Origin: Nordella sp. HKS 07
GTDB taxonomy: Bacteria; Pseudomonadota; Alphaproteobacteria; Rhizobiales; Aestuariivirgaceae
Length of the DNA: 64,000 nucleotides
Reading direction: 5' to 3'
NCBI RefSeq assembly: GCF_011046735.1
Contig: NZ_CP049258.1
Span: 558,001 to 622,000, forward strand
Shown: in pieces, positions 32,822 through 52,251 of the stretch
Position numbering within the stretch: position 1 is the first letter of the stretch
Layout: each line of letters opens with the position of its first letter
Translations under genes and position numbers: made by a program
Notes under the pieces: model-generated
Told to the model about the DNA's origin: nothing
Databases searched by the model: none
The model's input: only the letters and a program-made list of their open reading frames with translations

Positions 32822-33238
32822 TTACATTCCTCCGTCGCTAATAGGCGCGCCTTTTCAGTCGGCCTTTGATCCCCGCCCTTGTTTCACTGATGCCTATTCG
32901 GTCGGCGCCGCCAGACAGAAGCACCTTGGCTTGAGGATTTTTCATCGCTCGTGACGGTTCCGGCTCACCGTCTCTCCTTGCGGGCCCCCTACATTTGTGA
33001 CTTGCTTTGTAGGCGCAATGGCAGTTCTGCACGATCAGAGCATGAGCGGAGCAGTAAGCGCGCTCCACGCCATTATTCATGGATCAACGACGATCGACGC
33101 TTGCAACTGGTGATCCTAGCACCTTGAATTCCTCACGCAAGAGTGTAGTCTCATTTGGTGACTTGGGCAGAGGGCCATTCAAGTCACGGTTCATTGCACG
33201 TCGCCGATACCGCCTAACTACGCAAAAGGCAGGGACTC
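32822..33238. promoter_or_regulatory. Divergent promoter region between aspD and the AspT gene
   Basis: 417 bp with no supported gene. Both flanking genes start at its edges, so it carries two promoters. No operator with convincing symmetry was seen. The plus-strand gene is preceded by GGCAGGGACTC. Confidence 0.45.
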
Positions 33239-34930
33239 ATGGTTGACTGGTTTGTGAGCACGCTCCGCAGCTATCCGGAGATCGCAATCTTTCTCTCTTT
33301 GGGCCTTGGCTACTATTTCGGCGCCTTCAACTACAAGGGGCTCGGCCTCGGCGCGGTGACGGCCACACTCATCGCAGCCATCATCATCGGACAGCTTGGC
33401 ATCACCATTTCGCCTCCCCTCAAGGCGACGGTCTTCCTGATGTTTCTTTTTGCGGTGGGTTATTCGGTGGGACCGCAATTCGTGCGAGGCATCGCCAAGG
33501 ACGGCGTACCGCAAGCACTATTCGCGGCAGTCGTTGCCGTCTGTTGCCTGGCCGCACCATTTTTGGCCGCGAAATTCGCCGGCTATGACGTCGGCTCGGC
33601 AGCCGGATTATATGCGGGGTCGCAGACCATTTCGGCCTCAATGGGGTTGGCGACGGATGCGATCAATCGCCTGGGTCTGTCTCCTGAGGAAACCAAGCGT
33701 CTGCTCGACGCAATGCCGGTGGCCTATGCCGTCACTTATATTTTCGGCACCGTGGGTTCCGCCATCCTCTTGGCGCTGATCGGCCCCGCCTTGCTGGGCA
33801 TCGACCTCGAGGCGGAATGCAAGCGCTATGAAGAGGAGAGTGGCGGCAAGAAGCTGCAGGGTGGCGCCGGCACAGCCTGGCACCATTACGAGCTGCGGGC
33901 TTTCCGCGTCAGGCAGGGCGGGAAGGTCGTCGGCCTCACCGCACGCGAGGCTGAGGCACTCGTCCCGGGTGAGCGCGTCTTCGTCGAGCGCCTCAAGCGG
34001 GACGGAAAGATCCTGGACGCGACAGAGGATACCCGCATTCAGGCGGGCGATGTCGTCGCTGTCGCCGGCCGTCGGGAGGTTCTGGTGCAGCTGATCGGCG
34101 AGGGAGCCGAGGAAGTTGACGATCGCGAATTGCTGGCAGTGCCGGTGGAAGGCGTGGACGTGTTGGTTACGAGCAAGGAGGCCGACGGCAAGACGCTGGC
34201 TGAACTGGCGCAGTGGCCAACGGCGCGCGGCGTGTTTCTGCGCAGAATCGCGCGTGGCGCCACCGCCACCGATATTCCTATACTGCCGAACACGCAGATT
34301 CATCGCGGCGACATCCTCACTCTCGTAGGGCGTACTCAGGACACGACGGCGGCAGCCAAGGCCCTGGGCGTCCCGGACCGGCCAAGCGATGTTGCTGACG
34401 TTGCCTTCATCGGTGGCGCGATCGCGATCGGCGCTCTGATTGGAGCGTTTGTTTATAAGGTCGGTGATGTACCGTTGACGCTGTCAACATCAGGTGGCGC
34501 GCTGATCGCCGGGCTTTTCTTCGGCTGGCTGAGATCGGTGCATCCGACCTTCGGTCGGATTCCGTCGTCGACGGTGTGGTTCATGAATTCCGTCGGCCTG
34601 AACATGTTTATCGCAATCGTTGGTATTTCATCGGGGCCGGGTTTTGTTGCCGGACTGCAGCAACTGGGCTTCAGCCTGTTCTTATGGGGTATTTTTGCCA
34701 CGAGCGTGCCGCTGATTCTCGCGATGTATATTGGAAAATACATATTCAAGTTCCACCCCGCCATTCTGCTGGGATGCTGCGCGGGCGCCCGCACGACAAC
34801 CGCAGCACTTGGCATGATCAACGACCGCGCCAAGAGCCAGATCCCCGGGCTCGGCTATACGGTCACCTATGCGGTCGGGAACACGCTGTTGACGATTTGG
34901 GGAATGGTCATGGTCATTCTGTTGACCTAG
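33239..34930 (+). CDS. aspT: Aspartate:alanine antiporter (AspT family, paralogue 2)
   Basis: 563 aa. Same layout as the 26560-28248 protein: helices 1-190, two RCK-C-like domains ([20 protein letters not shown] and [19 protein letters not shown]), then helices 385-560. Signature stretches are [20 protein letters not shown] and [20 protein letters not shown]. Divergent pairing with AspD strongly suggests this copy is the aspartate:alanine exchanger. The two paralogues differ clearly in sequence, so they may serve different decarboxylases. Confidence 0.92.
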
Positions 34931-34966
34931 GTCAGCCCGCGCTGTTGACCTAGGTCAGCCCGCGCC
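34921..34966. repeat. 23 bp direct duplication containing a perfect palindrome
   Basis: GTTGACCTAGGTCAGCCCGC followed by GC[T/C] occurs at 34921-34943 and again at 34944-34966 with one mismatch. Each unit holds the 12 bp palindrome TGACCTAGGTCA. The first unit carries the AspT stop codon and the second the stop of the opposing gene. Confidence 0.9.
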
Positions 34967-35365
34967 GCCGCCCGGAGACTTCGGCGGCAGCGTCCGCCAC
35001 ACCTTGCGCCGCTGATCGACGAACACCTCGCGGCCCTCGTGCGTCACCGACCATAGCGGGTCGAACATTGATAGCGTGGCGGCGCAGGGTTTCCAGACCA
35101 GCTCTGCTGCCGCCGTATCGCCGAGCCCGGCGAGCGCCAGCGCCGCTTCGGATGTGACGCTCACCGGCGTGTTTGCGGCGGCCGCTGACGCGAGAAGCTC
35201 CCCACCGGCGGCGTCGATGCATGCGACGCTCCCGGCCACGTGGACGAGGAAATATGCGTTCTGTCCATCCAGCCGCCGGACCCGCCACGCGCGACCTTCC
35301 GGCGATTGTGGCAGACTGAGGAGCCGGCGCGCCTGAGCGATCGCCTGCTCGGAAGCGCCCGGCAT
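34955..35365 (-). CDS. Hypothetical protein coupled to a C39-like peptidase gene
   Basis: 136 aa, no signal peptide. It contains GRAWRVRRLDGQNAYFLVHV, a strand followed by CIDAAGGELLASAAAANTPV, then FDPLWSVTHEGREVFVDQRR. This looks like a small alpha/beta domain resembling PepSY-like folds, but I do not recognise it. Its ATG overlaps the stop of the upstream peptidase gene by one base (TGATG), so the two are translated together and may act together. Confidence 0.65.
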   Translation of the reverse strand: MPGASEQAIAQARRLLSLPQSPEGRAWRVRRLDGQNAYFLVHVAGSVACIDAAGGELLASAAAANTPVSVTSEAALALAGLGDTAAAELVWKPCAATLSMFDPLWSVTHEGREVFVDQRRKVWRTLPPKSPGGGAG

Positions 35366-36573
35366 CAGATTCCTTTCAGATCGAGCGTCAGCGACGCGAA
35401 CACGGGACCGTCGATACGCACATAAAGACGGTGTCCGCCGATCGTGAACATATAGAACGGAAAATATGGCGACAGCGATTCAAGGCACGGCCGCCACACG
35501 AGATGCGGGTACATGCACACGGACTGCTTGCGTACGAGCAGCCGGCCCTTCCGATCGCCGAGCTCGATACGCTTCCCGAGGATCGATTTGAATGCTTGCT
35601 CAAGCGTCAACCAGGAGCCGGCGCGACGCGGCTTGGGCAGGAGAGCCGCCTGCATATAGTCGCCCCACCGGCCGTCGACCGCGGCCATGGCCACGATTCC
35701 CCTGTTCGCTTCGAATGGCACGAGCGCGTAGTAGCTGTCGAGACGGTCCAGGCGTTGCACCATCATGCCGGGCCTCGGTTTGGCTTTGCGCAGGATGGAG
35801 CCCCAATCCTCGCGCTCGAACAGTCCGTAATCGCGCATCCCCGCTACCGCAAATTCCGCCGCGGTTCTCGGTTCGATGAGGTCGCCTTTGCCGCGGCGCT
35901 TGGGCGCTTCGCGCATCCGGCCACCGCGCGGGGCGGGCGGCTCCGGATCGCACAGGGCGACGAACTTGCCATTCCAGTAACCGGCCGGCACCCCGGTCAT
36001 ATAGGTCGACTGCCACGTCGCATAGGTCACATGCTCGTTGGCGATGCCGCGGTCGCCGCCCGTGCCGCATCCATCGCCGGCATTGTGCGGCGGTGGCGGC
36101 GCAAGCGCGGGCGTGTAGAAACTGGGAGTTGGCGGCCACGGATTGTTGATGTCGAAGGCCTCGATCGCATAGCCGTTATCGCTCGAGCTTATGGGATGGG
36201 CGCTGGCGGTGTAGCCGCGAACGGTAATCCAATGCGCCCAGCCGTAAACGAGCGCGATCGGCGCAACCTGATAGTGGCGGATCGTCCAGCACAGTTTGCG
36301 CGAGATCAGGTCTTCGGTGTCCAGCGCGTACAGGGCGAAATAATTGGTGAAGGTCGGTGGACGGCGGTCCATGAGCGTCCATTGAAGGCCATCCGGCCCG
36401 GTGTACCAGCCGGGGTCAAGCGTGCTGTGGCTGTGATTGTCGGCATAGAGGTCGTCTTGGTCGAGCAGGCCGGCGCCAATCGTTTCCAGCACCATCTGCG
36501 CGCACGCTGCGCCGCAATAATAATCGGTGTCCTGCTGATGCATCTGGACAGCAAGGTTTTCGCTGACGGACAT
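35365..36573 (-). CDS. C39-like (papain-fold) cysteine peptidase
   Basis: About 402 aa from the ATG at 36573 (RBS GGGAGG). The N-terminal half is a C39-type cysteine peptidase domain: VQMHQQDTDYYCGAACAQMV places the catalytic Cys near residue 21, GWAHWITVRGY the catalytic His near 116, and FDINNPWPP the Asp/Asn near 140. A Pro-rich linker (YTPALAPPPPHN) leads to a C-terminal domain of unknown type. There is no ABC transporter, bacteriocin precursor or signal peptide, unlike typical C39 systems. Function unknown. Confidence 0.75.
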   Translation of the reverse strand: MSVSENLAVQMHQQDTDYYCGAACAQMVLETIGAGLLDQDDLYADNHSHSTLDPGWYTGPDGLQWTLMDRRPPTFTNYFALYALDTEDLISRKLCWTIRHYQVAPIALVYGWAHWITVRGYTASAHPISSSDNGYAIEAFDINNPWPPTPSFYTPALAPPPPHNAGDGCGTGGDRGIANEHVTYATWQSTYMTGVPAGYWNGKFVALCDPEPPAPRGGRMREAPKRRGKGDLIEPRTAAEFAVAGMRDYGLFEREDWGSILRKAKPRPGMMVQRLDRLDSYYALVPFEANRGIVAMAAVDGRWGDYMQAALLPKPRRAGSWLTLEQAFKSILGKRIELGDRKGRLLVRKQSVCMYPHLVWRPCLESLSPYFPFYMFTIGGHRLYVRIDGPVFASLTLDLKGI

Positions 36574-36761
36574 GGCAATCCTCCCGATTTGATGCGAGGG
36601 GACGATCTCCCCGCCTGGACACTTGATCACGGAGGAGACCGGAAGGCCAGCGCCGGCGCGGGCAGCCGGGAAGGGCGTCGAATCCGCCTCTTTTTCGTCG
36701 CACGCCCATCATAGACGAACGTTCCTTCGTTTGGCGGCACGTAGCATGCGTACGCGCGACA

Positions 36762-37599
36762 TTGGGGCTTTCGAAGTTTCCGGCGCAACTGCGCCGTCAT
36801 ATCGCCGACCGGCTCAACTATATCAGTGTCAACGACATCGTTGTCATCCCGACCGAACGGCGATACGACCATAGTCCCTCGCATTACATCCTGGCGCCGA
36901 ACAGCTCCGGCATAACCGTACGCGATCCGGCCGATCTCGCCGCCAGCGCCACGGAGACTCACCGCATGGATGCGAAGGGCTTTTGCAATCCCCCTGCGAA
37001 AGCCGAAAGACCCAGTGTGGACATTGTTGTCCTGGGCGATTCCTTCGTCTTCTGCTCGGGGGTTGAAGCCACCGATACGAGCACCAGCTATCTCGAGGAG
37101 ATCAGCTATCTGACGACCTACAACATAAGCATCGGCAGGATCGGCCCCTATGAATATGTCGAGCTGCTCAGACACTTCGGCCTTGCCCTCAAGCCGCGTG
37201 TGGTAATACTCAACATTTATGAGGGGAACGATCTCAGGGATGCGCTCCGCTACGAAGAATTCCGGCTGTTTGGCCAAGATCGTCGGGCCGCGGAGAGCGC
37301 CCTTGAGGATGCGTTGTCATACAGCTATGCCCTTTCACTTGTCTACGCTTCAGGCGAGTGGTTGTTGCGCGATCAGATCAGTTGGCTTCTCGATTCCGAC
37401 AGAAACATCGACTACCACTACACCGCCAGCTCGCAAGGGGCCTTGATGCCGCTCAACGAGTCAAACCGGGGAAGGACCGCTCACGCATTTTCCCGTCAAT
37501 GTGCATCTGACACCCTATGGTCACCGGGTGTCGGCGACGGAATGGGCATCCGTTGTCGCGAAGGCTCTAGGCGCCACGGCGACAAATGCGGACGAGTAA
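36762..37599 (+). pseudogene. SGNH-hydrolase-like gene with internal deletion
   Basis: The plus frame has DIVVLGDSFVFCSGVEATDT (the GDS block I) and VVILNIYEGNDLRDALRYEE (block III). Just after PLNESNRG the frame is lost. One frame over, FPVNVHLTPYGHRVSATEWA and a stop at 37599 supply the block V His region. Roughly 100 codons that normally separate these parts seem missing, and the N-terminus has no good start. Related proteins are membrane-anchored acyl-transfer or glycan esterases. Considered inactive. Confidence 0.75.
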
Positions 37600-38034
37600 A
37601 TCGACAGCTGCCTCACCCCCTGGAACGCCCATGTAATCACCAAGCATTTTGCCGTCGTTGACCTACCTACCGTCGAATTTCGGGGCTTCGTTTCAATATG
37701 GCTACGCCCCGCCGGCGCTCAGCACTCACCGCACTGCACATCGGGACGCCGGCGGAACATCTCAAATGAAAGGTCGCCCCAAAAGATTCTATCTCGAGAT
37801 GGAACATCCTCGGCCTTTCGGGCATTTCCTGTTGCCTGTCACACGGCAGGCACGCCCTAAAAGCCCGTCAGAGATGCGAGGATAACCGTTCGCGCATTCT
37901 CTGGCGGGCTGATCTTGCGGCTCAGCTGGCGCGATTGCGGCACTGCGGTCGTAACATTTCGTAAAGCAATGTGCGGGAACCGGGGCGTTGCAAGCATCGT
38001 TCTTCACTTAGTATTGCATTTCATGGAGGTATTA
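37600..38034. other. Intergenic region
   Basis: 435 bp with no supported gene; short frames here lack ribosome sites. It includes the promoter and leader of the small secreted protein at 38035, whose ribosome site GGAGG lies near 38024. Confidence 0.35.
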
Positions 38035-38361
38035 ATGTTCCGGAAAACTTTGCTTGCTTGTGGTATCGCCCTTCCACTCGGCCTGATCGGCATGGCACCC
38101 GCGATGGCAGACGACATCGATATTTATTTGGGCAATGGCGGCTATGGCGATTATGGCGATTATGGCGATGGCCGATTGAGCTATCGCGATAGCCGATTGA
38201 GCTGCAATGAGGCTGCGCAGATTGTGCGCGATAGCGGCTACAACAGGGTCAGGCCCCGCGAGTGCGATGGCCGTGTCTACACATTCCGCGGTAGGCACAA
38301 CGGCAATTCTTATGTCATATACGTGAATTCGCGCAACGGGCGGATGTGGCGTGAAGGCTGA
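38035..38361 (+). CDS. Small secreted protein with YGD repeats
   Basis: 108 aa. Signal peptide MFRKTLLACGIALPLGLIGM, cleaved near PAMA. A short repeat YGDYGDYGDGRLSYRDSRLS is encoded by imperfect 9-18 bp DNA repeats. It is followed by CNEAAQIVRDSGYNRVRPRE and a strand pair (RVYTFRGRHNGNSYVIYVNS) like the PepSY-type domain of short rhizobial exported proteins. GGAGG sits upstream of the ATG. Role unknown. Confidence 0.75.
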   Translation: MFRKTLLACGIALPLGLIGMAPAMADDIDIYLGNGGYGDYGDYGDGRLSYRDSRLSCNEAAQIVRDSGYNRVRPRECDGRVYTFRGRHNGNSYVIYVNSRNGRMWREG

Positions 38362-38844
38362 GATAACAGGGACGCGCCGGCTGGATCAGGTGCCTGGAAT
38401 GCGACGGCTCAGGCTTGTGGCCCTGTCATCCGGTCGGCGCGGCCGGGACGATGCGCGGATTGTGCGCGGATTGCAAGGCGCTGGGCGGATCTTCGTTTCG
38501 ACTTAGAAACGGCGCACTTAGTGCGCATAACTTGTGACTTGGCGGATGACTGGCAGACATGCAATTCTCAGGCGTCGGCCTGCCCCAACCCCCGTTGACG
38601 TCCCAGCTCCTTCCATCGACGCGGACCTCAAGCAAGCTCAGCTCTAGCGCCTGAAAACGACGCAAGGGCAGTCGAGATTCGGACGTAACGGCAAGTAACG
38701 GGAGCAAGTTTGTTTCATTTTTGCGTTGTATTTTCTGCGAATCCCACCGCATGATTTTTACTTGCCGTAAATTCGATTGTTCAACATACTTACGGTTGTG
38801 GACGGCTCGCTGAGTCAGAACATTATCTGACAGAGGAGAAGCCT
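38362..38844. other. Non-coding stretch with small hairpins
   Basis: 483 bp without a supported gene. A perfect GCGCAC-TTA-GTGCGC stem lies near 38512-38526. Near 38764 the pair CCGTAA...TTACGG brackets an AT-rich segment upstream of the 55-aa gene and may be part of its promoter. Confidence 0.35.
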
Positions 38845-39012
38845 ATGAAAAAGACCATTCTCGCCACAATGGCAGTATTGGCAATGTTGGCAGCGAGTCA
38901 GGCCGCGTTCGCCGATGGTCGTGGGCCCGGCGGTGACAGCGGCATTAACAACGGCGGCGCGCCGGATGGCCGTGGGCATGGCAGCGCTGACGGCGGCGGC
39001 GGTGGCGAATAA
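38845..39012 (+). CDS. 55-aa secreted Gly/Asp-rich peptide
   Basis: Reads MKKTILATMAVLAMLAASQA then AFADGRGPGGDSGINNGGAP and DGRGHGSADGGGGGE. The first 24 residues are a clean signal peptide. The mature 31 residues have no cysteine and two DGRG units. The ribosome site GAGGAG precedes the ATG and a strong terminator follows 11 bp after the stop, so it looks like a real monocistronic gene. Function unknown. Confidence 0.75.
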   Translation: MKKTILATMAVLAMLAASQAAFADGRGPGGDSGINNGGAPDGRGHGSADGGGGGE

Positions 39013-39023
39013 GCGCTGATATA

Positions 39024-39049
39024 AAAGGCCTCCCTTAGGGGAGGCCTTT
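39024..39049 (+). terminator. Rho-independent terminator
   Basis: An 11 bp perfect stem AAAGGCCTCCC / GGGAGGCCTTT with a TTAG loop directly follows the 55-aa gene. The T-tract is short (TTTCGT), but the stem is strong and symmetrical, so it may work in both directions. Confidence 0.85.
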
Positions 39050-39295
39050 CGTCTACCCTCCGGACCGCCAAGCGAGATGACGCGAGGTTAGCAAGGTAGC
39101 GGAAGAGTTTTTATCTCGATGTAGCTTGGCGAGGAATTGTTGAGGTTCTGGGCAACAACCTCCTTGAGAGCCGTACCCCGTTCCCATGAAGTTGCTGCCT
39201 TGAAGCGGAGGCGCGCGAGTCGGTGCGAGGTGCGACTAACCAGACGCCCTGCTCGCGCGCGTCTTGCCGAGGGTGAACGAGCCGCGAATAACGCC

Positions 39296-39781
39296 ATGGT
39301 CAAAGTGGAGGTCGAATACAAGCACCGTCATCCGGGACGAAGATCGCCACGGAAATGCGCGCTACTACTACCGGCGCGCGGGCATGAGGAAGATCCGCCT
39401 GCCCGACATTCACTCGGAAGATTTCGACGCAGCCTATGAAGCCGTGAAGGCTGTGGGAGAGAAAGTGTTGCCGTCCACGAAAGCGAAAGCGCTGAAGTAA
39501 TCTTTGCGCTAGCTGACTAACCGCTATTACCTCTCGCAAGAATGGCGCCTGCTCGATCCGGTCACACAGCGCCGCCGGCGCATCAGCTCATGTCGATATT
39601 CGGGTGGACGACGCTGCAACAGGCCGAGGTTTACACCAGGGCGGCCGAACAGAAGCGCCTGGCGGGATCGGCCATGCACCTGATCTTACCGACCGCAGCG
39701 CAGAATGCGCCGGCAACAGGAATTGTCCCACTGGCGCAGGATTTCGCTGTCCCACTCAGGAAAGAGGCTGGAAAATCATGA
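39296..39781 (+). pseudogene. Broken tyrosine integrase (N- and C-terminal parts only)
   Basis: The start MVKVEVEYKH shifts frame into VIRDEDRHGNARYYYRRAGM and RKIRLPDIHSEDFDAAYEAV, typical of the N-terminus of alphaproteobacterial phage integrases. After a stop, the frame at 39542 reads HQLMSIFGWTTLQQAEVYTR and AAEQKRLAGSAMHLI. This is the C-terminal box with the catalytic Tyr (EVYTR). The central catalytic Arg/Lys/His-x-x-Arg parts are missing. A dead integrase next to the tRNA-like att remnant at 39797. Confidence 0.8.
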
Positions 39782-39796
39782 TGTTGGGAAGTGGGT

Positions 39797-39828
39797 TGGC
39801 GCCCCCTAGGGGACTCGAACCCCTGTTT
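39797..39828 (-). other. tRNA-Glu-like 3' end, candidate attachment site
   Basis: The minus strand reads AAACAGGGGTTCGAGTCCCC then TAGGGGGCGCCA. That is a 5 bp T-stem (AGGGG/CCCCT) around TTCGAGT, a 7-base acceptor strand AGGGGGC, discriminator G and CCA. It resembles alphaproteobacterial tRNA-Glu. The rest of a tRNA is absent upstream, so this is a fragment, as left at one end of an island integrated into a tRNA gene. It lies between the broken and the intact integrase. Confidence 0.7.
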
Positions 39829-39984
39829 CAGCTGTGAGAGATATGTAAACCCGTCTACAGTTGTTCATGGATGTCAGACTAACTTCATATAAAATAAAGA
39901 AAACATATACTTGCGCCCACGCTTGCCTAGCGCTGTCCACGTATATATATTGGACAAAGCGTTGGACAAAGGGGAGTTTCAGCC

Positions 39985-41259
39985 GTGGCGAAGCGGGTTT
40001 ACGACAAGATGTTGGACAGCAGGGCGGCGCGGGAGAAGCTGCCAGTTAGGGGCAAGCCATATTATCGCTCGCTCGGGCAAGGCCTTCACCTGGGGTATCG
40101 CAAGAACCAGAGCGGCGGGCGATGGGTGGCGCGCCTCTATGTCGGGTCCGGCGACTATCGGGTCGAGACTATCGCCGATGCCGACGACCGCCTCAATGCC
40201 AACGGCTCGACTGTGCTCGATTTTTGGCAGGCGCAGAAGAAGGCGCACGACCTTCACAAACAGTTGGCTGGTCCCGCCGAAAAGGTGTCCGCGGTCTATA
40301 CCGTCGAGCAGGCGGTCGACGACTATCTGATCTGGATGGCGGATGCCCGCAAGTCGGCCCAGGACGCGAGGTACAAGGCAAATGCGTCGATCATCCCCGT
40401 TCTCGGCAGCAAGGACGTCTCGAAGCTCAAGGCCAGTGAGTTGCGCCACTGGCTACGCAACGAGGCGAAGACAGCGACACGCCTGCGGACCCGGAAGGGC
40501 CAGCCCCAGAAATATGCCGAGCTCACCGATGATCCCGAGAGCATCAGGCAGCGGCGAGCGACAGCTAATCGCATTCTGACAGTCCTGAAGGCCGCGTTGA
40601 ATCACGCTTGGCGCGAAGGCAAGGTCACGTCGGATGCCGAATGGCGGCGAGTCCTGCCCTATGCTGGCGTCGATGGGGCCCGCGTGCGCTATCTCACCAT
40701 CGCCGAGGCGAAGCGGCTGGTGAACGCTGCGGAGCCAGCTTTCCGCAAGATGGTACAGGCTGCGCTCAAGACTGGATGCCGCTATGGCGAGTTGGCGGCG
40801 CTCAAGGTGGCCGACTTCAATCCCGATGTCGGCACCGTCACGATCCGCGATAGCAAGTCCGGCAAGGCGCGCCACGTCATCCTGACTGAGGAAGGCGGCG
40901 AGTTTTTCAGGGCCGTCACTCTGGGCAAAGCGGGCGATGAGATCATCTTCACGCACAATGGCGGTCCCTGGCGTCATGCCCATCAGAGCCGTCCGATGGC
41001 GGCCGCCTGCAAGGCTGGTAGCATCAGCCCGTCGATCGGTTTCCATGGATTGCGGCACACATGGGCGAGCTTGAGCGTCATGGCCGGCGTCCCATTGATG
41101 GTCGTCGCCAAGAACCTTGGGCATTCCGATACGCGCATGGTCGAAAAGCACTATGGGCATTTGGCCCCGTCCTTCGTGGCCGACCAGATCAGGGCAGGCG
41201 CGCCCCGGTTTGGCACGGTTGAAGAGACGAATGTCACGCCGATAGGCGGCGCCAAATGA
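39985..41259 (+). CDS. Tyrosine recombinase / island integrase
   Basis: 424 aa from a GTG at 39985 with GGGGAG upstream. N-terminal DNA-binding part, a SAM-like core-binding domain (TVEQAVDDYLIWMADARKSA near residue 113), then the catalytic domain. Catalytic residues: Arg in KTGCRYGELAAL, Lys in DSKSGKARHVIL, HxxR in GFHGLRHTWASL, His in LGHSDTRMVEKHYGHL with the nucleophile Tyr. All residues are present, so it should be active. It heads a plus-strand operon, its stop overlapping the next ATG. Confidence 0.93.
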   Translation: MAKRVYDKMLDSRAAREKLPVRGKPYYRSLGQGLHLGYRKNQSGGRWVARLYVGSGDYRVETIADADDRLNANGSTVLDFWQAQKKAHDLHKQLAGPAEKVSAVYTVEQAVDDYLIWMADARKSAQDARYKANASIIPVLGSKDVSKLKASELRHWLRNEAKTATRLRTRKGQPQKYAELTDDPESIRQRRATANRILTVLKAALNHAWREGKVTSDAEWRRVLPYAGVDGARVRYLTIAEAKRLVNAAEPAFRKMVQAALKTGCRYGELAALKVADFNPDVGTVTIRDSKSGKARHVILTEEGGEFFRAVTLGKAGDEIIFTHNGGPWRHAHQSRPMAAACKAGSISPSIGFHGLRHTWASLSVMAGVPLMVVAKNLGHSDTRMVEKHYGHLAPSFVADQIRAGAPRFGTVEETNVTPIGGAK

Positions 41260-41684
41260 GCAGCGATCCCCACGACTGGCACGTGTTCACCTTCGGCGAG
41301 CTCACCATGGGCGAGCGGGTCGAGCAAATTGTCGAGGTTCTGGAGCGCGGCAACCCCTCGCCGGAATTTTGCCGCGAACTCGCTGACTGCCTGAGGGGCG
41401 TACCGGAGCGTGGGATCTTCGTGCTCAAGCCTGTTCCGGCACGAGGCGCTGGTCGTCCACGGAACAACCAACAATATGGAATAGGCATGGAAATGGGGCG
41501 GCTCGTGGACGACCAAGGCATCTCCGTCAAAGAGGCGATTCATCAGGTGCAACGGCGCTTCGGCAAGACGGGCACGACGCGATCGCAATGCTTGGCTGCA
41601 CTCAAGGCCGAGCGTGAAACCAGAAAGTCGATCGAGAACATGAGAAAGCTTTGCCGCCAGCCCAAGCGCTGCGAGTCCGAATAA
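41256..41684 (+). CDS. Hypothetical protein coupled to integrase
   Basis: 142 aa, ATGA overlap with the integrase stop. It contains FGELTMGERVEQIVEVLERG, CRELADCLRGVPERGIFVLK and a basic C-terminal part (GKTGTTRSQCLAALKAERET). No recognised domain; small helical and probably cytoplasmic. Such genes beside island integrases often include directionality or replication factors, but I see no HTH here. Confidence 0.7.
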   Translation: MSSDPHDWHVFTFGELTMGERVEQIVEVLERGNPSPEFCRELADCLRGVPERGIFVLKPVPARGAGRPRNNQQYGIGMEMGRLVDDQGISVKEAIHQVQRRFGKTGTTRSQCLAALKAERETRKSIENMRKLCRQPKRCESE

Positions 41685-41773
41685 TTATCCGAATTTTTCG
41701 GACCTCTTTGTTGTAGCGCGCTGATGAAGAGGTATTAATAAGGGTGTTCACCCATAATCGCTGAGGTGGACAC

Positions 41774-42049
41774 ATGGACTTTCAAGCTCTCGCCTTCACG
41801 ATCAACGAATGGTGCACGGCTCGCCGGTTTTCGCGGGGCATGTTCTATAACTTGCAGAAAGCCGGCAAGGGACCGCGCGTCCACAAGGTCGGCGACCGCA
41901 CGTTGATCTCCATCGAGGCCGATCGTGAATGGCTCAAGCAGCGGGAGGCCGAAGCCGAGGCCGAGATCGCTGCCAAGGCCCCGAAGAACGCCGCCAAAGC
42001 CTCTGCCATAGCCGCCGCCAAGGCGTCGAAAGCGCGCGGAGCTTCGTGA
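41774..42049 (+). CDS. AlpA/excisionase-like small HTH protein
   Basis: 91 aa. Residues 5-55 (FTINEWCTARRFSRGMFYNL, then KAGKGPRVHKVGDRTLISIE) resemble the MerR-type winged HTH of AlpA/excisionase proteins, with DREWLKQREA as the usual last helix. The tail is Ala/Lys-rich. Placement behind an integrase fits an excisionase or element regulator, inferred from fold and context only. Confidence 0.7.
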   Translation: MDFQALAFTINEWCTARRFSRGMFYNLQKAGKGPRVHKVGDRTLISIEADREWLKQREAEAEAEIAAKAPKNAAKASAIAAAKASKARGAS

Positions 42050-42055
42050 TCGGCC

Positions 42056-42214
42056 ATGTCCATGAAAGCATCGGGGCCTGCCGGACGGCGATCCGGACAG
42101 GCCCCTGAGAAAGTAGTCGGCGAGCAGCACGACGGTCCTCTCGATACCAACTCTAAATCGCCGACGCAAGTCTCCGATTGCCACGCAGACAAGCATCGGA
42201 AGGACGACGTGTAG
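42056..42214 (+). CDS. Small hypothetical ORF (52 aa)
   Basis: The ATG at 42056 opens 52 codons (MSMKASGPAGRRSGQAPEKV...) ending at a TAG whose last base begins the GTG of the next gene. The tight junction supports expression, but the sequence is low in hydrophobics and I do not recognise it. Confidence 0.4.
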   Translation: MSMKASGPAGRRSGQAPEKVVGEQHDGPLDTNSKSPTQVSDCHADKHRKDDV

Positions 42215-42507
42215 TGAACACTCTCTTCCGACCGCCCCGCCAGAAGCTCGAACCGATGACGCGCAGGTATCCGTGTCCCACCTGCCCGCTGAATGACGAC
42301 TTTATCAAGCGCTGCATGCTCGGACCGACCAAGAAGCAGGCGCCCGAGCTGCGGACATATGTGACGCCGCGCTCGACGATCGACGCATTCTGGTACGTCG
42401 CGCGAACTTATGACCGTGCATATGTCAATCGCTGGCTTGCCGATCATCCTCTTGACCGTAGTTACTTACTGAAGCTTTGGCGCGAGAGGCAAAGGCGGGC
42501 GCCATGA
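42214..42507 (+). CDS. Small cysteine-motif protein
   Basis: About 97 aa from GTG 42214. It contains RRYPCPTCPLNDDFIKRCML, a CxxC...C cluster possibly binding zinc, then VARTYDRAYVNRWLADHPLD. Its stop overlaps the helicase ATG (ATGA). No family recognised. Coupled translation with a helicase suggests a partner or accessory nucleic-acid-binding factor. Confidence 0.65.
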   Translation: MNTLFRPPRQKLEPMTRRYPCPTCPLNDDFIKRCMLGPTKKQAPELRTYVTPRSTIDAFWYVARTYDRAYVNRWLADHPLDRSYLLKLWRERQRRAP

Positions 42508-44012
42508 CGATCAACCTTCGCCAGTATCAGATTGAAGTCATCGACGAACTGCGAGCGGCAGTAGCGAATGGATCGAAACGCACCCTTCTCGTCGCGCCGA
42601 CCGGTGCCGGAAAAACCGTCATTGCATCGGCCATAATTGCCGGGGCCGTTGCGAAAGGCAAACGTGTCCTGATGGTGGCGCACCGTCGCGAGCTTATCGA
42701 CCAAGCTTGCCGAAAGCTCGACGACGCCGGAATCAAATCGGGCACCATCCTTGCCGGTGATTTTCGCCGCGATGACGATGCGCCGGTCCAGGTCGGCAGC
42801 ATCCAGACCATTCATGCCCGCGCCATCCGAGGCGAGCGCATGATCCTTCCGAGAGCCGATCTGCTCATCGTTGATGAAGCACACCGAGTTCGCACGTCGT
42901 TGTATCAGCAACTGCTCGACGCCTATCCCCATGCCAAAGTTGTCGGATTGACAGCGACGCCGTGTCGGTCTGACGGGCGAGGTTTGGGTAACGTGTTCAA
43001 CGAGATGGTTCAGTGCCCGTCCGTTCAGGAGTTGATCGACCTCGGGCATCTTGTGAAAACCATCGTCTATGCGCCTGAGACGCCAGACCTCAAGGGCGTC
43101 AAGATCAAGCGCGGCGACTATGCGGAAGATCAGCTTGCCGAGCGCATGGACAAACCGAAGCTCGTCGGGGATATCGTCTCGCATTGGCATCGACTGGCGG
43201 CTGGGCGGAAGACGGTTGTCTTCGCGACGTCGATCGCGCACTCCAAGCACATCGCGGACGAGTTCAACAGGGCGGGCGTGGCTGCTGCCCACATTGATGG
43301 AGCTACGCCGAATGCAGAGCGCTCGGAGATTCTCGCCCAGTTATCCAGTGGTCAATTGAAGGTCGTCTCGAATTGCGCTGTTTTGATCGAAGGATGGGAT
43401 CAGCCGCACGTTTCCTGCTGCGTCTTGGCCCGGCCGACGAAGCACATGGGTACCTACCGGCAGATGGTCGGCAGAGTCCTTCGCCCAGTCCCCGGCAAGG
43501 ACCATGCGCTTGTCCTGGATCATGCCGGAAACACGTTTGAGCATGGTCGCGTCGAGGACCGCGTCGAGTGGACGCTCGATGCGGATCAGCGGGCGGAGAA
43601 CTCTGCGCACAGAAGCAGACGGCAGGAGGGCTCGCGATCGAGGCTCGTAAGCTGCCAAAAGTGTAGCGCAGTCAGAGTGGCTGGCGAGCCCTGCCCGCAA
43701 TGCGGCTGGCTTCCTAAGAGGCGGGGCGAAGCGGTCGATGTCGAAGATGGCGAGTTGGCACGCGTCGACAAGAAGGGCAAGGTCCATCCGCGCGATTGGT
43801 CGGCCTTCGAAAAGGACCGCTTCCTCGCGGAGCTGATCTGGCTCGCGAACGAGCACGGCTACAACCCCATCTGGCCGAGGTGCCAGTTTAAAAACCGTAT
43901 CGGCCATTGGCCCAACAATAATCCTATGCCGGTCGAGCCGAGAGCCGAGACGAGAGCCTGGATCAGGTCACGCATTATCGCTTGGGCCAAATCGAAAGGC
44001 AGGGCGGCGTGA
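42504..44012 (+). CDS. SF2 helicase with C-terminal zinc-finger segment
   Basis: About 502 aa. Motifs: Q-like LRQYQIEVIDEL, Walker A VAPTGAGKTVIAS, motif Ia VAHRRELIDQA, DEAH box LIVDEAHRVR, motif III VGLTATPCR, motif IV VVFATSIAHSKHIADEF, motif V VVSNCAVLIEGWDQP, motif VI QMVGRVLRP. After the motor come two CxxC pairs (CQKCSAVRVAGEPCPQCGW near residue 385) and a C-terminal helical part. This is the phage/island DEAD/DEAH type used in replication or restriction-like systems. It is coupled by ATGA and GTGA overlaps to genes on both sides. Confidence 0.93.
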   Translation: MTINLRQYQIEVIDELRAAVANGSKRTLLVAPTGAGKTVIASAIIAGAVAKGKRVLMVAHRRELIDQACRKLDDAGIKSGTILAGDFRRDDDAPVQVGSIQTIHARAIRGERMILPRADLLIVDEAHRVRTSLYQQLLDAYPHAKVVGLTATPCRSDGRGLGNVFNEMVQCPSVQELIDLGHLVKTIVYAPETPDLKGVKIKRGDYAEDQLAERMDKPKLVGDIVSHWHRLAAGRKTVVFATSIAHSKHIADEFNRAGVAAAHIDGATPNAERSEILAQLSSGQLKVVSNCAVLIEGWDQPHVSCCVLARPTKHMGTYRQMVGRVLRPVPGKDHALVLDHAGNTFEHGRVEDRVEWTLDADQRAENSAHRSRRQEGSRSRLVSCQKCSAVRVAGEPCPQCGWLPKRRGEAVDVEDGELARVDKKGKVHPRDWSAFEKDRFLAELIWLANEHGYNPIWPRCQFKNRIGHWPNNNPMPVEPRAETRAWIRSRIIAWAKSKGRAA

Positions 44013-44722
44013 CCACGAGCCGCAAATGGGCCGCCGTGCACCGTGTCCGGCTCGGGCACGTCCGCAGGCTTTTGAAATATCGCTATCGTGGCCCCACGGT
44101 GCCCGACGACGACGCCGGACGGGAGGACTTACGCACCCTCCTTCACGTCAAGGCCGTCTGTCACCCTCCCGGGCCTGACCGGGTGCGGAAACTCATCAAC
44201 GAGATCGAGCTCACGGCGCCATGGAAAGACACTAACGCGGCCCAGAAGCTCGCCGATGAGATTGCGGAGAAGCCGCTGACCCTCAAGGCCGATACTCTCG
44301 GTAGGATGCTCCGCATGGATTGGGTCACCCGCGTTGGGCTTCGGCTGTGGCAGATCGGCCCCGAAGACCTTGATGCCGAAGCGCGCAAGCAACAGCGAAA
44401 GCGTCGGGACCGCGAGCGTAAGGGAGACGCTCGCCGGGATCAGGGCCGAAAGCCACGCGCCGAATATGAAGGCAAATCTCTGTCACGTCTCAAGCCTTGG
44501 GAAGCAGAGGGCATATCGCGAGCGTCGTGGTACCGCAGGCAGAACCGTGAACCGGTGGCACAGGTGTGTCCGCAGACCAATGGATCGATGAGACAAGTGT
44601 GTCCGCAAAGTACCTTTCTTAATCCAGTGGACACACCTGTCTCACGGCACGAAGGGGGCTCGGGAAAACACCGAGGTGATGTCTCCAGTGTACATCATCC
44701 TGAGTCAGGGAGACGGCGGTGA
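44009..44722 (+). CDS. Hypothetical basic protein with embedded DNA repeats
   Basis: About 237 aa from a GTG that overlaps the helicase stop (GTGA). The N-terminal ~130 residues are helical (LGHVRRLLKYRYRGPTVPDD, HVKAVCHPPGPDRVRKLINE). Next is a basic stretch (ARKQQRKRRDRERKGDARRD), then a polar tail with repeats AQVCPQTNG and RQVCPQST. The DNA for that tail carries iteron-like repeats. Position after a helicase and embedded repeats suggest a replication-initiator-like protein with its origin inside the gene; I do not recognise the family. Confidence 0.65.
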   Translation: MTTSRKWAAVHRVRLGHVRRLLKYRYRGPTVPDDDAGREDLRTLLHVKAVCHPPGPDRVRKLINEIELTAPWKDTNAAQKLADEIAEKPLTLKADTLGRMLRMDWVTRVGLRLWQIGPEDLDAEARKQQRKRRDRERKGDARRDQGRKPRAEYEGKSLSRLKPWEAEGISRASWYRRQNREPVAQVCPQTNGSMRQVCPQSTFLNPVDTPVSRHEGGSGKHRGDVSSVHHPESGRRR

Positions 44723-44783
44723 CCAACAGGCAAGCGCTAGAGCGCAAAGCCCCGATGGTAAACGGACACACCTGTCTCACGGC
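44559..44783. repeat. Iteron-like repeat cluster, four copies in alternating orientation
   Basis: Core TGAGACAGGTGTGTCCG or its complement: 44559-44575 (CACAGGTGTGTCCGCAG), 44589-44607 (TGAGACAAGTGTGTCCGCA), and inverted at 44629-44648 and 44764-44783 (both exactly GGACACACCTGTCTCACGGC). The inverted pairs could also fold as hairpins. Such spaced repeats next to a helicase resemble an origin or operator array. Confidence 0.75.
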
Positions 44784-44934
44784 CAATGTCCCGCCTGGCT
44801 CGATGCCGACCTTTACTGACCTCAATGCCTTTCCCGGCCGGAAACCCGCCTGCGATCGCCGACGAGTTGGAGACGGCCCCACGATGACGCCGCCTGATGG
44901 AGGGGGGACTCGAAAGTCTGCAAGGTGGCGCTGA
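44719..44934 (+). CDS. Small hypothetical ORF ending the helicase operon
   Basis: 71 aa starting from a GTG that overlaps the previous stop (GTGA), continuing the coupled operon. It reads TNRQALERKAPMVNGHTCLT, then Pro/Arg-rich sequence. It spans the fourth repeat copy. Composition is weak and it may be non-functional. Confidence 0.4.
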   Translation: MTNRQALERKAPMVNGHTCLTANVPPGSMPTFTDLNAFPGRKPACDRRRVGDGPTMTPPDGGGTRKSARWR

Positions 44935-45128
44935 AGCGGACCCCCGAGGCCGTCATAGAGAGATTTTTTTCACCGCGTCAAAATGTTGGGACACGACCAG
45001 TTTGTGTGGCGTTCTGGTGTCAGGTTTTTTTACGCTATGCAAGACAGGTGGAACTATCCCAATGGTTGATTCCGCTATCGCTGATCAACTGCCTGGCTTG
45101 GTCGGTCCACTGCCTTGGATAGTCGAAA

Positions 45129-45161
45129 AGGTCGTCGGTTCGATTCCGACGGGCTCCACCA
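45129..45161 (+). other. tRNA 3'-end fragment, candidate attachment site
   Basis: AGGTCGTCGGTTCGATTCCG followed by ACGGGCTCCACCA: a 5 bp T-stem GTCGG/CCGAC around TTCGATT, a 7-base acceptor GGGCTCC, then ACCA. No matching GGAGCCC 5' half is found upstream, so only the 3' part is present. It differs from the fragment at 39797, so the two do not flank one simple island. The tRNA type is not assigned. Confidence 0.65.
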
Positions 45162-45497
45162 CTCACTCCTTGATATTATCGGGCTTTCGATAAGGATACG
45201 AACTTACCCGATATTTCCGCGACTTAGCGCTCAAATGCGGGAGCGATTGCGTCTCTGTCAGTCTCTGTGTCGTCCGGCACGCTCGATGTTTGCGGAAAAT
45301 CTCTAACGCCAGAAAAGTGTTTCCGAGATTCGCTACACTGCTTGCGTGGAGACCAGTTCGACTGCGCGAAGAGACCGGTTCGTATGTCGCTCAAAAGCTC
45401 AGTCGTTTGCCAGGCGCAGAACAAGTCGAGTCTTATCCAAACAGATTGTCCGCCGGGGATGACCACCGCAATGGCGCAATCAGAGCGCGACTGAAGA
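45162..45497. other. Spacer between tRNA remnant and recombinase cassette
   Basis: 336 bp with no supported gene. A short stem TTATCG-GGCTTT-CGATAA lies near 45177-45194. The rest has only shadow frames. Confidence 0.35.
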
Positions 45498-47071
45498 TCA
45501 GGCGATTCCGAGAAGGCGTCGTTGCTCAGCCCAGTCCAAAGGAAGCTCCGTCAGGCGGGTAAGGCCGAGACCGCGTGGCAGACGTCCCTCGATCGCTGCA
45601 GCGACGATGTCCGACGCCAGAAAGGCGAGAGATAGGGTGTGCCTGACAGTTCTTTCGCTGCAGCCCTCCCTCAGGGCTAGAGTTCCTGTGTCCGCCACTT
45701 TGCCACCAATCAGCTCGTCGAGCCAGACAATCGCTTTGTGAATTGCCTTCAACAGGCGAGTACGATTCTCAATCTTCATGGGCTGTTGGGCCGCGGCATC
45801 ACTTCCCTGCGGCACCAGCAAGTCGCGTTTGCGGGTCGTCGGAGGGGGTGGTGCCCAGGGGATGGTAATAATCTCGGCCGTGCTGGCTCCATCGGTCGTA
45901 TTGATCGCGACATCGAGGGTTCCGTTACGGATCACGACTTGGCCCAAGTACCTTTCGACCAGATCCCGGTCTTCCATTCCACCCTCGCCGGACACTTTGT
46001 CTCTGAGGGCGGTGAGAACTGCTTTCTCGATTTCGTTTGCCGGAAGACGCGGAACCGATCCAGCCTGTCCCCTTTGACCCTGGACGAGGGCAGTCGACAC
46101 ATAATAGCGATAGCGGACTCCCTTTTGATCGCATAGGTCGGTGACATCCGATTATTCCGGTCATCGAAGAACTTTCCGGTCAGAAGTGCCTCCGAGGCGA
46201 GACGATCTTCCCGGCGGACCTGTAGATTGTGCGAAAGCCGGGCCTGAACCGTATCGAAGAGAACAGGGTCAATAATAGGCTGGTGCTCTCCCTTGTAACT
46301 CTGCCCCTGGTGATTGATCTCGCCGAGATAGACCCGGTTACGCAGGATGTGATTGAGGGGGCCATTGGTCAGAGGACCGCCTCCCACGGTGCGCCCGGAC
46401 GACAAGGTTCTCACTCTGGTAATAATACCCTTCTCGCGCAAATCCTTTTGCAGGGCGGGGAGCGAGCCAAGCTCCAGATAGCGAGCGAAGATCAGCTTGA
46501 CGGTCGCCGCCTCTCCATCATCTACAATCAGGTGCTTGTTCTCGACCCGGTAACCAAGCGGGACGACCCCTCCCACCCACAGGCCCTTTTTCTTTGAGGC
46601 GGCTATCTTGTCACGGATTCTTTCGCCCGTAACCTCCCGCTCGAACTGCGCGAAGGAGAGAAGGACATTGAGGGTGAGGCGTCCCATTGATGTGGTCGTG
46701 TTGAAGGACTGGGTCACCGATACGAAAGAGACCCCATGGCCGTCGAACAATTCCACGAGCTTTGCAAAGTCGGCCAGCGCACGGGTCAGCCGATCCACTT
46801 TATAGACAACGACGATATCGATCCTTCTGGCCCGGATGTCGTCGAGTAACTGCTGCACAGCAGGCCGCTCCAGCGAACCACCCGAGTATCCTCCATCATC
46901 ATAAGTTCTTGAGAGGGCCTTCCAGCCTTCCGAAGCTTGGCTTTTTATGTAGGCCGAACAGGCCTCTCTTTGTGCATCGAGAGAGTTGAAGTCTTGCTCC
47001 AATCCCTGGTCGCTCGAGACGCGCGTATAGATCGCACAGCGCGCGGCAACGCGTTCAGATGGCTTGGTCAT
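45498..47071 (-). pseudogene. Large serine recombinase with frameshift
   Basis: Resolvase-type catalytic domain from the ATG at 47071: RCAIYTRVSSDQGLEQDFNS (catalytic Ser in RVSS), YDDGGYSGGSLERPAVQQLL, VYKVDRLTRALADF, then the recombinase domain (VPLGYRVENKHLIVDDGEAA, NHILRNRVYLGEINHQGQSY). At 46123-46126 (T4 on the plus strand) one base is missing. Restoring it turns IKRESAIAI into IKKGVRYRYYVSTALVQGQR and joins the C-terminal part ending LDWAEQRRLLGIA at 45498. Likely site-specific integrase of a mobile element, inactivated or misread. Confidence 0.88.
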
Positions 47072-47513
47072 TTCTGGGAAGCCTTCCGATCCAGACCGAA
47101 GAATCGACGACCGTTCCATTTGGTGCCGGTGATAGCGAAGGCGGTCTCGGACAGGCTGCTATACCCGACCAGGCGAAGCCATTCTCCAGAACCATAACCC
47201 TGTGCAGCTCGCCGCCATGCTCCCTGATGAGAACGCTGCCGGGCCGAAGCCCGGAAGCATTTGATGGAGACAGGCCTCCTGCCAGGACCTTGTTGAGGGT
47301 GACGCGAAGAGAGCGGTGCGGGTCACCTGACACTTTCGCCTGAATACGGTAATGCAGCAGGCGCTGGAAGAGGGTGCGTGGAAGATGCGTTGGCACGTTC
47401 CTACCAAACCTCACGCGCCAGAGACGATGGAGCTCGGCATCTTCAAGCGAAGAGAGTTGGCCGAAATCGATCGCCGAGACCAATTGTTCAACGTTCTCTA
47501 GAATTTTTTGCAT
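47068..47513 (-). pseudogene. DUF2924 protein with 3' frameshift
   Basis: MQKILENVEQLVSAIDFGQL, then LEDAELHRLWRVRFGRNVPT and FQRLLHYRIQAKVSG match the DUF2924 family found beside serine recombinases. The uninterrupted frame derails after ENGFAWSG. Adding one base at the C3 run 47163-47165 gives SSLSETAFAITGTKWNGRRF then FGLDRKASQK with a stop at 47068, the usual ending. The restored stop overlaps the recombinase ATG (ATGA), which supports the correction. Confidence 0.82.
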
Positions 47514-49706: not shown

Positions 49707-51377
<1,671 letters not shown>

Positions 51378-51404
51378 CATTGACTGGGTGCGATTAGTGC
51401 CAGG

Positions 51405-51719
51405 TCAGGCCGCACGCTTTACGGGGGCCTTCTCCTCGATCACACCCATGACGTCGCTCTCCTTCAGGATGAGCAGCTCTTCGCCATCGAGCTTGATCTC
51501 AGTGCCGGACCATTTGCCGAAAAGGATGCGGTCCCCCTTCTTGACATCGAGCGGCTGAAGCGCGCCCTTGTCGTCGCGCCCACCGGGGCCGACGGCCAGG
51601 ACCTCGCCTTCCTGCGGCTTCTCTTTTGCGGTGTCCGGGATGATGATGCCGCCTGCCGTTTTCTCATCGGCGTCGATGCGGCGGACCAGGATACGGTCAT
51701 GCAATGGACGGAACGTCAT
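51405..51719 (-). CDS. groES: Co-chaperonin GroES (10 kDa)
   Basis: 104 aa ring-forming lid of GroEL. The ATG at 51719 follows GAGGAG. Motifs: [20 protein letters not shown] at the start, [20 protein letters not shown] (mobile loop) near residue 23, [20 protein letters not shown] near 62 and [11 protein letters not shown] near the end. First gene of the groESL operon, with a candidate heat-shock promoter about 105 bp upstream. Confidence 0.98.
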
Positions 51720-51824
51720 ATCGTTCTCCTCGTTGGACAAACAGATTTTTGAGAGGTTCCACCGCCCAGCCCGCGGGGGCCACAGCGGGGTCCGCGATAC
51801 CTCATGGGCATCGCGTGCAATACG

Positions 51825-51889
51825 AGCTAATTTGCCCCCGCGTGATTTCAAGAGGTCTGGCGAAAAATTTTAGCACTCACCCATTGAGT
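51825..51889 (-). promoter_or_regulatory. Candidate RpoH promoter and CIRCE half-site of groESL
   Basis: On the minus strand, CTTGAA (51852-51847), 11 bases, then GCAAATTAGCT (51835-51825). The same CTTGAA-N11 spacing occurs before two Hsp20 genes. Upstream of it lies TTAGCACTC (51870-51878) followed by ACCCATT and GAGT, which matches one intact half and the start of the other half of a CIRCE (HrcA) site. The half-site is on the far side of the promoter, so it may be degenerate. Confidence 0.5.
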
Positions 51890-51982
51890 CGGCCAGCAAG
51901 AGGCCGGCAATGGATGCACCGGAACCCTCGCAGAACGAGACTGTTATTCTGCCTATCCGCATCCTGGGTATAAGAGGGACGT

Positions 51983-52251
51983 ATGATCAGCAAAGAATTC
52001 CTGCTTCGCATGCACGGCTACGGCCTTACCACGGCCGAGATCCATTACCACCTTCCCGACTATCCCGGTTTGCTGCAACTCTTCCTATGGTCACACCACG
52101 ACCTGGCGCCGGAATTCCCAACATTGATGGGCTTTCTCAGCTATTGGGAGCGTGAGATCGAGGGCAAGCTGCATTCGGTGCGCATGCTCATCACGCACTC
52201 GTGGAGCAGGCAGAGTGGCGTCATTTCGGCAAGGAGATCGCCCTCCCGTGA
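51983..52251 (+). pseudogene. Usg-family protein gene with frameshift
   Basis: MISKEFLLRMHGYGLTTAEI, HYHLPDYPGLLQLFLWSHHD and LAPEFPTLMGFLSYWEREIE then GKLHSVR match the Usg family (about 90 aa, alphaproteobacterial, function unclear). At ~52187 one base appears lost (ATGCTC instead of ATGGCTC). Restoring it gives AHHALVEQAEWRHFGKEIAL-P and a stop at 52251, an 89-aa protein of normal length. Confidence 0.8.

Follow-up and report, generated by a model that had tools for sequence, protein, structure and literature searches.

A putative replication module with a primase-less initiator and in-gene origin sites in an integrative island of Nordella sp. HKS 07

The window analyzed here, the whole 64-kb stretch of DNA comprising bases 558001-622000 of the 7.18-Mb genome of Nordella sp. 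HKS 07, carries at 39985-44934 an operon that includes a putative replication module (window coordinates are used unless positions are marked as genome). All the open reading frames (ORFs) named by an earlier sequence-only reading of this DNA were found in their places on the + strand: a tyrosine integrase, a 142-aa protein (p142), an AlpA-like protein, a 52-aa ORF, a CxxC protein, a superfamily 2 (SF2) helicase, a basic protein, and a 71-aa ORF (Table 1). That reading had described them as mostly linked by overlaps. Five joints do overlap (integrase/p142, CxxC/helicase, ATGA; 52-aa ORF/CxxC, TAGTG; helicase/basic protein and basic protein/71-aa ORF, GTGA), whereas p142 and the AlpA-like gene are separated by 89 nt and the AlpA-like gene and the 52-aa ORF by 6 nt. 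Because of the overlaps, later starts than those of the longest ORFs were assigned to the genes for the CxxC protein (GTG 42214, 97 aa), the helicase (ATG 42504, 502 aa), and the basic protein (GTG 44009, 237 aa). As the same reading had it, none of the eight ORFs matched a gene for capsid, conjugation, or restriction-modification functions.

Table 1. Coordinates of the genes, sites, and tRNA-like fragments at the locus (window positions).
Feature	Position	Strand	Evidence or remark
Attachment site (att), 45-nt fragment of the tRNA-Glu(CTC) 3' end	39796..39840	-	left end of the unit
Tyrosine integrase, 424 aa	39985..41259	+	Pfam Phage_integrase 2.5e-23; phrog_1 1.1e-54
142-aa protein (p142)	41256..41684	+	coding-like codon use; no family match of weight
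AlpA-like excisionase/regulator, 91 aa	41774..42049	+	phrog_66 excisionase and regulator, weak, 1.8e-4
52-aa ORF, doubtful	42056..42214	+	weak codon signal; no relatives found
CxxC protein, 97 aa from GTG 42214	42214..42507	+	no family match
SF2 helicase, phage family phrog_16, 502 aa	42504..44012	+	2.1e-107
Basic protein, proposed replication initiator, 237 aa	44009..44722	+	profile match to 3vw4 'Rep' 4.3e-8
Helix-turn-helix (HTH) codons, PWEAEGISRASWYRR; residue after SR = A	44495..44539	+	sequence
Site 1, TGGCACAGGTGTGTCC	44556..44571	+	
Site 2, TGAGACAAGTGTGTCC, left arm of inverted pair	44589..44604	+	
Spacer of inverted pair, 24 nt	44605..44628		62.5% AT (whole gene 38% AT)
Site 3, TGAGACAGGTGTGTCC, right arm of inverted pair	44629..44644	-	
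71-aa ORF, holds site 4	44719..44934	+	no frame preference
Site 4, TGAGACAGGTGTGTCC, behind the gene	44764..44779	-	
Fragment like the tRNA-Ala(GGC) 3' end	45126..45170	+	89% over 45 nt to genome 2527720-2527764; tRNA-Ala(GGC) by ARAGORN

The training set for codon statistics consisted of 51 long ORFs from the region, and percentiles were taken against ORFs of 50-110 aa in the six frames. Codon use was coding-like (94th-99th percentile) for the integrase, p142, the AlpA-like protein, the helicase, and the core of the basic-protein gene (44009-44550), fair for the CxxC gene (89th percentile), and weak for the 52-aa ORF (70th percentile). The 71-aa ORF showed no coding signal (53rd percentile) and no preferred frame, and is probably not a gene. 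The repeat-bearing tail of the basic-protein gene (44551-44719) was non-coding-like, at the 11th percentile of short ORFs.

The basic protein matched no Pfam family at 0.1, no NCBIfam family at 0.01, and a single PHROG only at E=0.043; its 30 aligned relatives gave no PHROG match at 0.001, and a tblastn search against phages returned no match. Relatives were present in 16 of 397 genomes of the order, including its own, and profile searches recovered 110 loci, 37 viral and 73 from genomes. The AlphaFold 2 model of the protein is all-helical, without strands, with a mean pLDDT of 82.7. A sequence profile matched the solved chain 3vw4, 'Rep', over the C-terminal HTH (4.3e-8), and the 3vw4 fragment itself matches plasmid replication initiation proteins, up to 100%. 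The PDB record says 'Rep' only; we take the chain to be the DNA-binding domain of ColE2-P9 Rep on origin DNA. Passages of PMC4980987 and PMC5862659 that speak of the structure of a ColE2 Rep domain agree with this identity. An HTH of the same kind also ends other plasmid replication proteins, including RA3 RepB, with which the window protein has PWEAxGxSRxxWYR in common. The protein that the sequence-only reading had left unrecognised thus indeed matches no known family, but it carries the C-terminal DNA-binding domain of ColE2/IncU-type plasmid initiators.

A search of the 64 kb for TGAGACAGGTGTGTCC at up to three mismatches gave four matches, all of them within 224 nt (44556-44779). In a first scan with the same tolerance, the motif was found behind the HTH in 21 of the 110 loci, against four matches in the remaining 1.15 Mb of these loci. 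For an independent count, the HTH was located in 97 of the 110 loci, which fell into 60 clusters. An unbiased count of 8-mers found GTGAGACA in 19 of the 60 clusters, with 0.28 expected; the top 8-mer overall, CGATACCA, represents the WYR codons of the HTH itself. TGAGACARGT, at one mismatch or fewer, occurred in 21 of the 60 clusters (expected 0.88) and TGGCACARGT in nine others, a figure without an expectation, so that 30 of the 60 have either form. The 34 TGAGACARGT sites lie in all three frames, 24 on the + strand and 10 on the - strand, with 25 inside the gene, 6 over the stop, and 3 behind it; protein coding therefore does not explain them. By sequence, a putative cognate origin site thus stands at or behind the gene's 3' end, as is typical of ColE2/IncU-type Rep.

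Of the 60 representatives, 27 had a site in a scan for inverted pairs, and 14 had two inverted sites at a spacing of 39-42 nt; the spacing is 40 nt in the window, and the spacers are 52-74% AT. With loops of 23-26 nt these pairs would also pair as RNA, and the repeat might be read as a hairpin, a terminator or attenuator, instead of a protein site. This is very improbable, since the copies are direct or single in plasmid members and some others (L181, L188, L190, L174, RA3), and since the site variant follows a residue of the protein, which a hairpin would not predict.

The HTH residue after SR tracks the site variant, alanine going with TGAGACA and arginine with TGGCACA. The scan covered 119 items, two of them without the pattern, and gave one row per cluster, residue, and variant. 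TGAGACA was found in 22 of 36 alanine rows (the window also having TGGCACA, and one row TGCGACA), and TGGCACA alone in none. Among 36 arginine rows, 14 had TGGCACA (one also TGACACA, and L207 also TGAGACA), and none had TGAGACA alone. As for other residues, serine occurred with TGAGACA in 2 of 8 rows, threonine in 0 of 2, and proline in 0 of 1. Fisher's test on the unmixed rows, 20 versus 12, gave 4e-9. A tree was then built without the covarying residue, and the test on it covered the 46 alanine or arginine rows that bear a site, with the window scored by majority; siteless rows and those with any other residue did not enter it, and the two variants had been chosen after seeing the data. The 46 comprised 27 alanine/TGAGACA rows, 18 arginine/TGGCACA rows, and one tie (L207), with no discordant row among the 45 scored. 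The tree requires 14 changes, and all nine independent pairs on well-supported branches agree (p=0.0039); long branches, including that of the window, leave the exact placement of the changes unsure. Recognition of the sites by the predicted initiator is strongly supported by this sequence covariation.

A close plasmid counterpart of tested function is RA3 (IncU), with which Rms149 (IncP-6) is grouped here following PMC9455977. Deletions and complementation tests placed the RA3 oriV at the 3' end of repB, where a partial r3 repeat adjoins AT-rich DNA (PMC9455977). RA3 RepB and the window protein have a C-terminal HTH of one kind, PWEAMGMSRAKWYR. In RA3, TGAGACAAGTCCCTCC lies behind the HTH; it is four mismatches from TGAGACAGGTGTGTCC, yet has TGAGACAAGT in common with window site 2, and in both cases this site stands directly behind the HTH at the gene's 3' end with an AT-rich stretch alongside. 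The differences concern size and arrangement: RA3 RepB has 459 aa, with a large N-terminal part bearing archaeo-eukaryotic-primase-like motifs (by eye; no Pfam match), against 237 aa in the window; RA3 has one in-gene site plus DR2 repeats, against four sites including an inverted pair; and no such helicase lies next to repB in the RA3 stretch examined. The plasmid pPDL2 was considered as an integrative IncU precedent and set aside; in the passages on it, RepB is given a Rep-3 domain and RepA RPA and Rep-3 domains.

The DNA-binding domain that the profile places in common with ColE2-type Rep is accompanied by a similar site. TGAGAC stands right behind the HTH in three of the four ColE2-type loci read, and, as in the window, it goes with a class-A residue; the fourth locus (Col156-type, L233) has GTAGACC instead. 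Specificity work on ColE2/ColE3 Rep and its origin reportedly exists. ColE2 Rep is described as a primase-initiator in passages of PMC4980987 and PMC5862659, and its primase domain is missing from the window protein. According to parts of PMC3163176, a minimal origin of 32 bp suffices with Rep in trans, and parts of PMC5862659 report that ColE2 Rep, although without an NTPase domain, unwinds DNA via its PriCT-1 and HTH domains. For the window sites, an origin function is suggested by the relationship to the RA3 and ColE2 replicons.

The covariation shows specific recognition only, and a protein with an HTH may act as a regulator no less than as an initiator. The basic protein might accordingly be a transcription regulator, with the sites serving as operators for its own operon or for the genes behind, and in prophages the sites do fall between early and packaging genes. 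We nevertheless regard this as unlikely, because the sites lie at the 3' end of the gene, partly inside it, and not before it, because the kin of tested function, in what the consulted passages of PMC9455977 and PMC3163176 say of RA3 and ColE2, are initiators with an origin at that place, and because of the TGAGAC right behind the HTH in ColE2-type loci.

The helicase upstream of the basic protein belongs to a phage family, its match to the phrog_16 profile covering the helicase core (residues 6-440). In a tblastn search, 2692 phage records matched, none of them reaching 60% identity. At E<=1e-40, relatives were found in 38 of 397 genomes of the order, including its own; the best other one (G341, 53%) sits in an arrangement of integrase, AlpA, helicase, and HTH genes. 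G341 has a further gene with 36-38% identity to a small gene that precedes the large terminase in G206 and L160; that small gene matched no family, and by its position it may encode the small terminase subunit (TerS). With the helicase as the sole query in genome contigs and viral contigs, no relative was confirmed, and the DNA of the helicase operon had no match among plasmids. In the viral contig L119, a single 716-aa ORF fuses the initiator (33%, 2e-17) and the helicase (36%, 2e-82). In L160, the gene immediately preceding the initiator encodes a helicase of 50% identity, and behind the initiator come the small gene and then the large terminase gene (phrog_2, 2.4e-26); the helicase-initiator order of L160 and the window recurs in L133. 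In the prophage-like L160, the helicase is also preceded, at 1479-4054, by a HATPase gene and a TOP6A/Spo11-Toprim gene, as in the topoisomerase VI pair.

The helicase also resembles helicase domains of PADLOC, the best being mREase_IV (5.2e-33), which would be in line with the earlier suggestion of a helicase-based defence module. This match is limited to the helicase domains, none of the seven other ORFs matched any PADLOC entry, and the signature genes of one known system were not found together. The helicase is far closer to phrog_16 (2.1e-107), and its relatives adjoin phage or initiator genes, which makes a defence role extremely unlikely.

Taken together, the sequence comparisons indicate that 42504-44779 is quite probably a replication module, formed by a helicase, a primase-less initiator, and an in-gene origin, of a prophage- or satellite-type integrative element. 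The 'replicating' part of the sequence-only reading, which had proposed a minimal replicating satellite, is thereby supported at the sequence level, by an origin-binding domain of ColE2/IncU type that is followed by sites fitting it, and by a phrog_16 helicase. Its caveat that each gene might belong to a known prophage replication set applies by half: relatives of the helicase and the basic protein lie in prophage-like early regions, but the basic protein matches no known family. According to the proposed mechanism, the integrase and the AlpA-like protein, judging by their families, would excise the unit at the tRNA-Glu repeats. Through its C-terminal HTH, the initiator would then bind the TGAGACA-type sites located where its gene ends and may open the AT-richer spacer that separates the two arms of the inverted pair (44589-44644), after which the co-encoded SF2 helicase would extend the bubble and the excised circle would replicate. 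The primer would presumably be supplied by the host, because no primase domain is seen; host primase could prime.

Several observations weigh against this interpretation. A Foldseek comparison of the basic-protein model with the PDB gave 20 matches up to E 10, none of them at E<=0.001, and the primase domain of ColE2/IncU-type Rep was not found in the basic protein (237 aa, no Pfam match, strandless model). One of the window sites reads TGGCACA and three read TGAGACA, and the RA3 site differs from the window site in its second half. Neither site form was detected in 30 of the 60 clusters, including a Rhizobium cluster of 24 loci with TWERR, and the residue/site scan found no site for the L119 fusion protein or the L133 gene. 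The helicase was matched alongside the initiator in only 4 of the 110 loci (L119, L133, L138, and L160), so many initiator relatives would rely on a different helicase or encode none themselves.

The Rhizobium cluster just mentioned (L148 and 23 other loci) comprises a chromosomal version of the initiator, with TWERR in the HTH and no sites, which is perhaps a domesticated copy.

The remaining genes of the operon gave fewer matches. The AlpA-like protein has relatives in L085 (37%) and L237 (39%), and p142 gave no blastp match to the gene upstream of AlpA in L085. The CxxC protein remains unrecognised, as before, with no family, no phage match, and relatives only in its own genome among 150.

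To the left, the unit begins with the tRNA-Glu(CTC) fragment listed in Table 1. Copies of this fragment, 97.8% identical, are located at genome 642070-642114 and within an intact tRNA-Glu gene at genome 673385-673460; the first lies 44.3 kb from the window att, and the intact tRNA 31.3 kb beyond. This recurrence indicates that the locus consists of two units in tandem, one of about 44.3 kb and one of about 31.3 kb. No second att copy was found at the right side of 39985-44934, and with the next copy 44.3 kb away, the claim that these 5 kb form a complete small integrative element did not hold; they are the integrase-proximal part of a larger composite island of 44.3 kb. Four further genomes of the genus were compared. 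In G001 and G003, the 43 nt that flank the window att on its left run straight into the intact tRNA; G002 yielded a short contig that contains the tRNA and lacks the left flank, and from G004 there was only a weak match. At E<=1e-60, the integrase was found in 5 of 297 genomes of the order, including its own, and the other four adjoin a tRNA-Glu 3' end. The best reading is that the module belongs to a tRNA-Glu(CTC) integrase group and here forms the integrase-proximal end of the composite unit.

Ten larger ORFs of the first unit were assigned by Pfam to GroEL, three Hsp20, TspO, cupin/HTH, cyclase/TPR, TPR, DJ-1/PfpI, and response regulator proteins; from this content the unit appears to be a composite island. 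Genes for capsid, tail, and terminase, the set of a complete prophage, were found neither among the eight ORFs of 39985-44934 nor among these ten, the remaining ORFs being judged by eye only.

The closest integrase found (49%) belongs to G206, in which a complete 10.2-kb element lies between two tRNA-Glu copies. It resembles the window in its integrase, an AlpA-like gene (39% over 62 aa), and the same att. In the replication slot, where the window has the helicase and the initiator, it carries a primase (phrog_21866 7.4e-39, Pfam AEP-TOTE 1.3e-10), followed by a large terminase (TerL; phrog_2 9.5e-30), and unlike the window it has no TGAGACARGT or TGGCACARGT site. No capsid or tail gene was matched among six ORFs scanned in this element, five short ORFs lying outside the scan. 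Eight proteins of G206 and L160, including both terminases, had no relative in the 144 kb around the window copy. The satellite label given to the element by the sequence-only reading is a matter of kinship, through the integrase, with the G206 element, which has a primase, a large terminase, and no capsid match among the ORFs scanned; no terminase relative was found in the 144 kb. Gram-negative phage-inducible chromosomal islands (PICIs), as outlined in passages of PMC6092414, have a comparable order of integrase, AlpA-type regulator, replication genes, and origin. The window unit has an integrase with its own att and a weakly matched AlpA-type regulator (phrog_66 1.8e-4) but differs in having no primase-rep fusion, no recognised terminase small subunit, and 44.3 kb between att copies in place of about 15 kb; as for a packaging gene, the 144 kb contained no relative of the TerL or TerS-position proteins of G206/L160, a search that did not extend to TerS of other kinds. 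Because of the size and the packaging gene, the unit was not filed as a PICI.

The operon could also be a dead remnant, the left arm of a decayed prophage or satellite kept in a composite island with no present function. Such decay would fit the want of relatives of the TerL, TerS-position, primase, and neighbour proteins of G206/L160, as well as the composite island with its two tandem units, the tRNA-Ala-like end, and the integrase remnants beside att. On the other hand, the integrase, AlpA, CxxC, helicase, and initiator frames are open and coding-like, and att and the sites are well kept. We rate this explanation as less likely than not; it is compatible with the replication-module reading as regards the origin of the module.

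Further insertions were observed around the unit. Just left of the tRNA-Glu fragment, at 39264-39781, ORFs judged by eye include pieces resembling another integrase, which suggests a trace of an earlier insertion at the same tRNA. Another stretch, of about 13.3 kb left of att (26431-39753), is missing from G001 and G003 and represents a further insertion in this locus. On the right side of the operon, the tRNA-Ala-like fragment may be the end of another element or a fusion point; as a right boundary of the unit it was rejected, no partner being found in the 144 kb searched. A large serine recombinase (Resolvase 1.7e-39, Recombinase 5.6e-13) is encoded just 3' of the operon on the - strand (45932-47119). 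The first unit carries heat-shock cargo at 49707-55304: genes for GroEL and three Hsp20 proteins, together with a pair of ROSE RNA thermometers (53729-53833, 54771-54867). The second tandem unit (genome 642070-673460; L032, L033) starts at the tRNA-Glu copy and has its own integrase, a 77-aa AlpA/HTH_17 protein, and a 451-aa protein without a significant family.

A title- and abstract-level literature search on phage or integrative relatives of IncU RepB, on recognition by ColE2 Rep, and on satellites, with subscription journals thinly covered, returned no description of a family of the kind outlined here. We consider it reasonably likely that the primase-less initiators form an unnamed family across alphaproteobacterial prophages and satellite-type elements, characterized by a ColE2/IncU DNA-binding domain, an origin within the 3'-terminal part of the gene that encodes them, often with two inverted sites flanking an AT-rich spacer, and a one-residue code, alanine reading TGAGACA and arginine reading TGGCACA, in common with broad-host plasmids. 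For the window, this would give a likely function and a specific candidate origin to a protein outside Pfam, PHROGs, and NCBIfam, and it would tie the IncU and ColE2 plasmid replicons to prophage and island replicons by protein and DNA site together. If the family is real, origins and cross-recognition among phages, islands, and plasmids would be predictable from sequence. The covariation of residue and site would allow computational origin finding in unannotated elements, and it gives an indication of the plasmids and integrated elements between which interference might occur.

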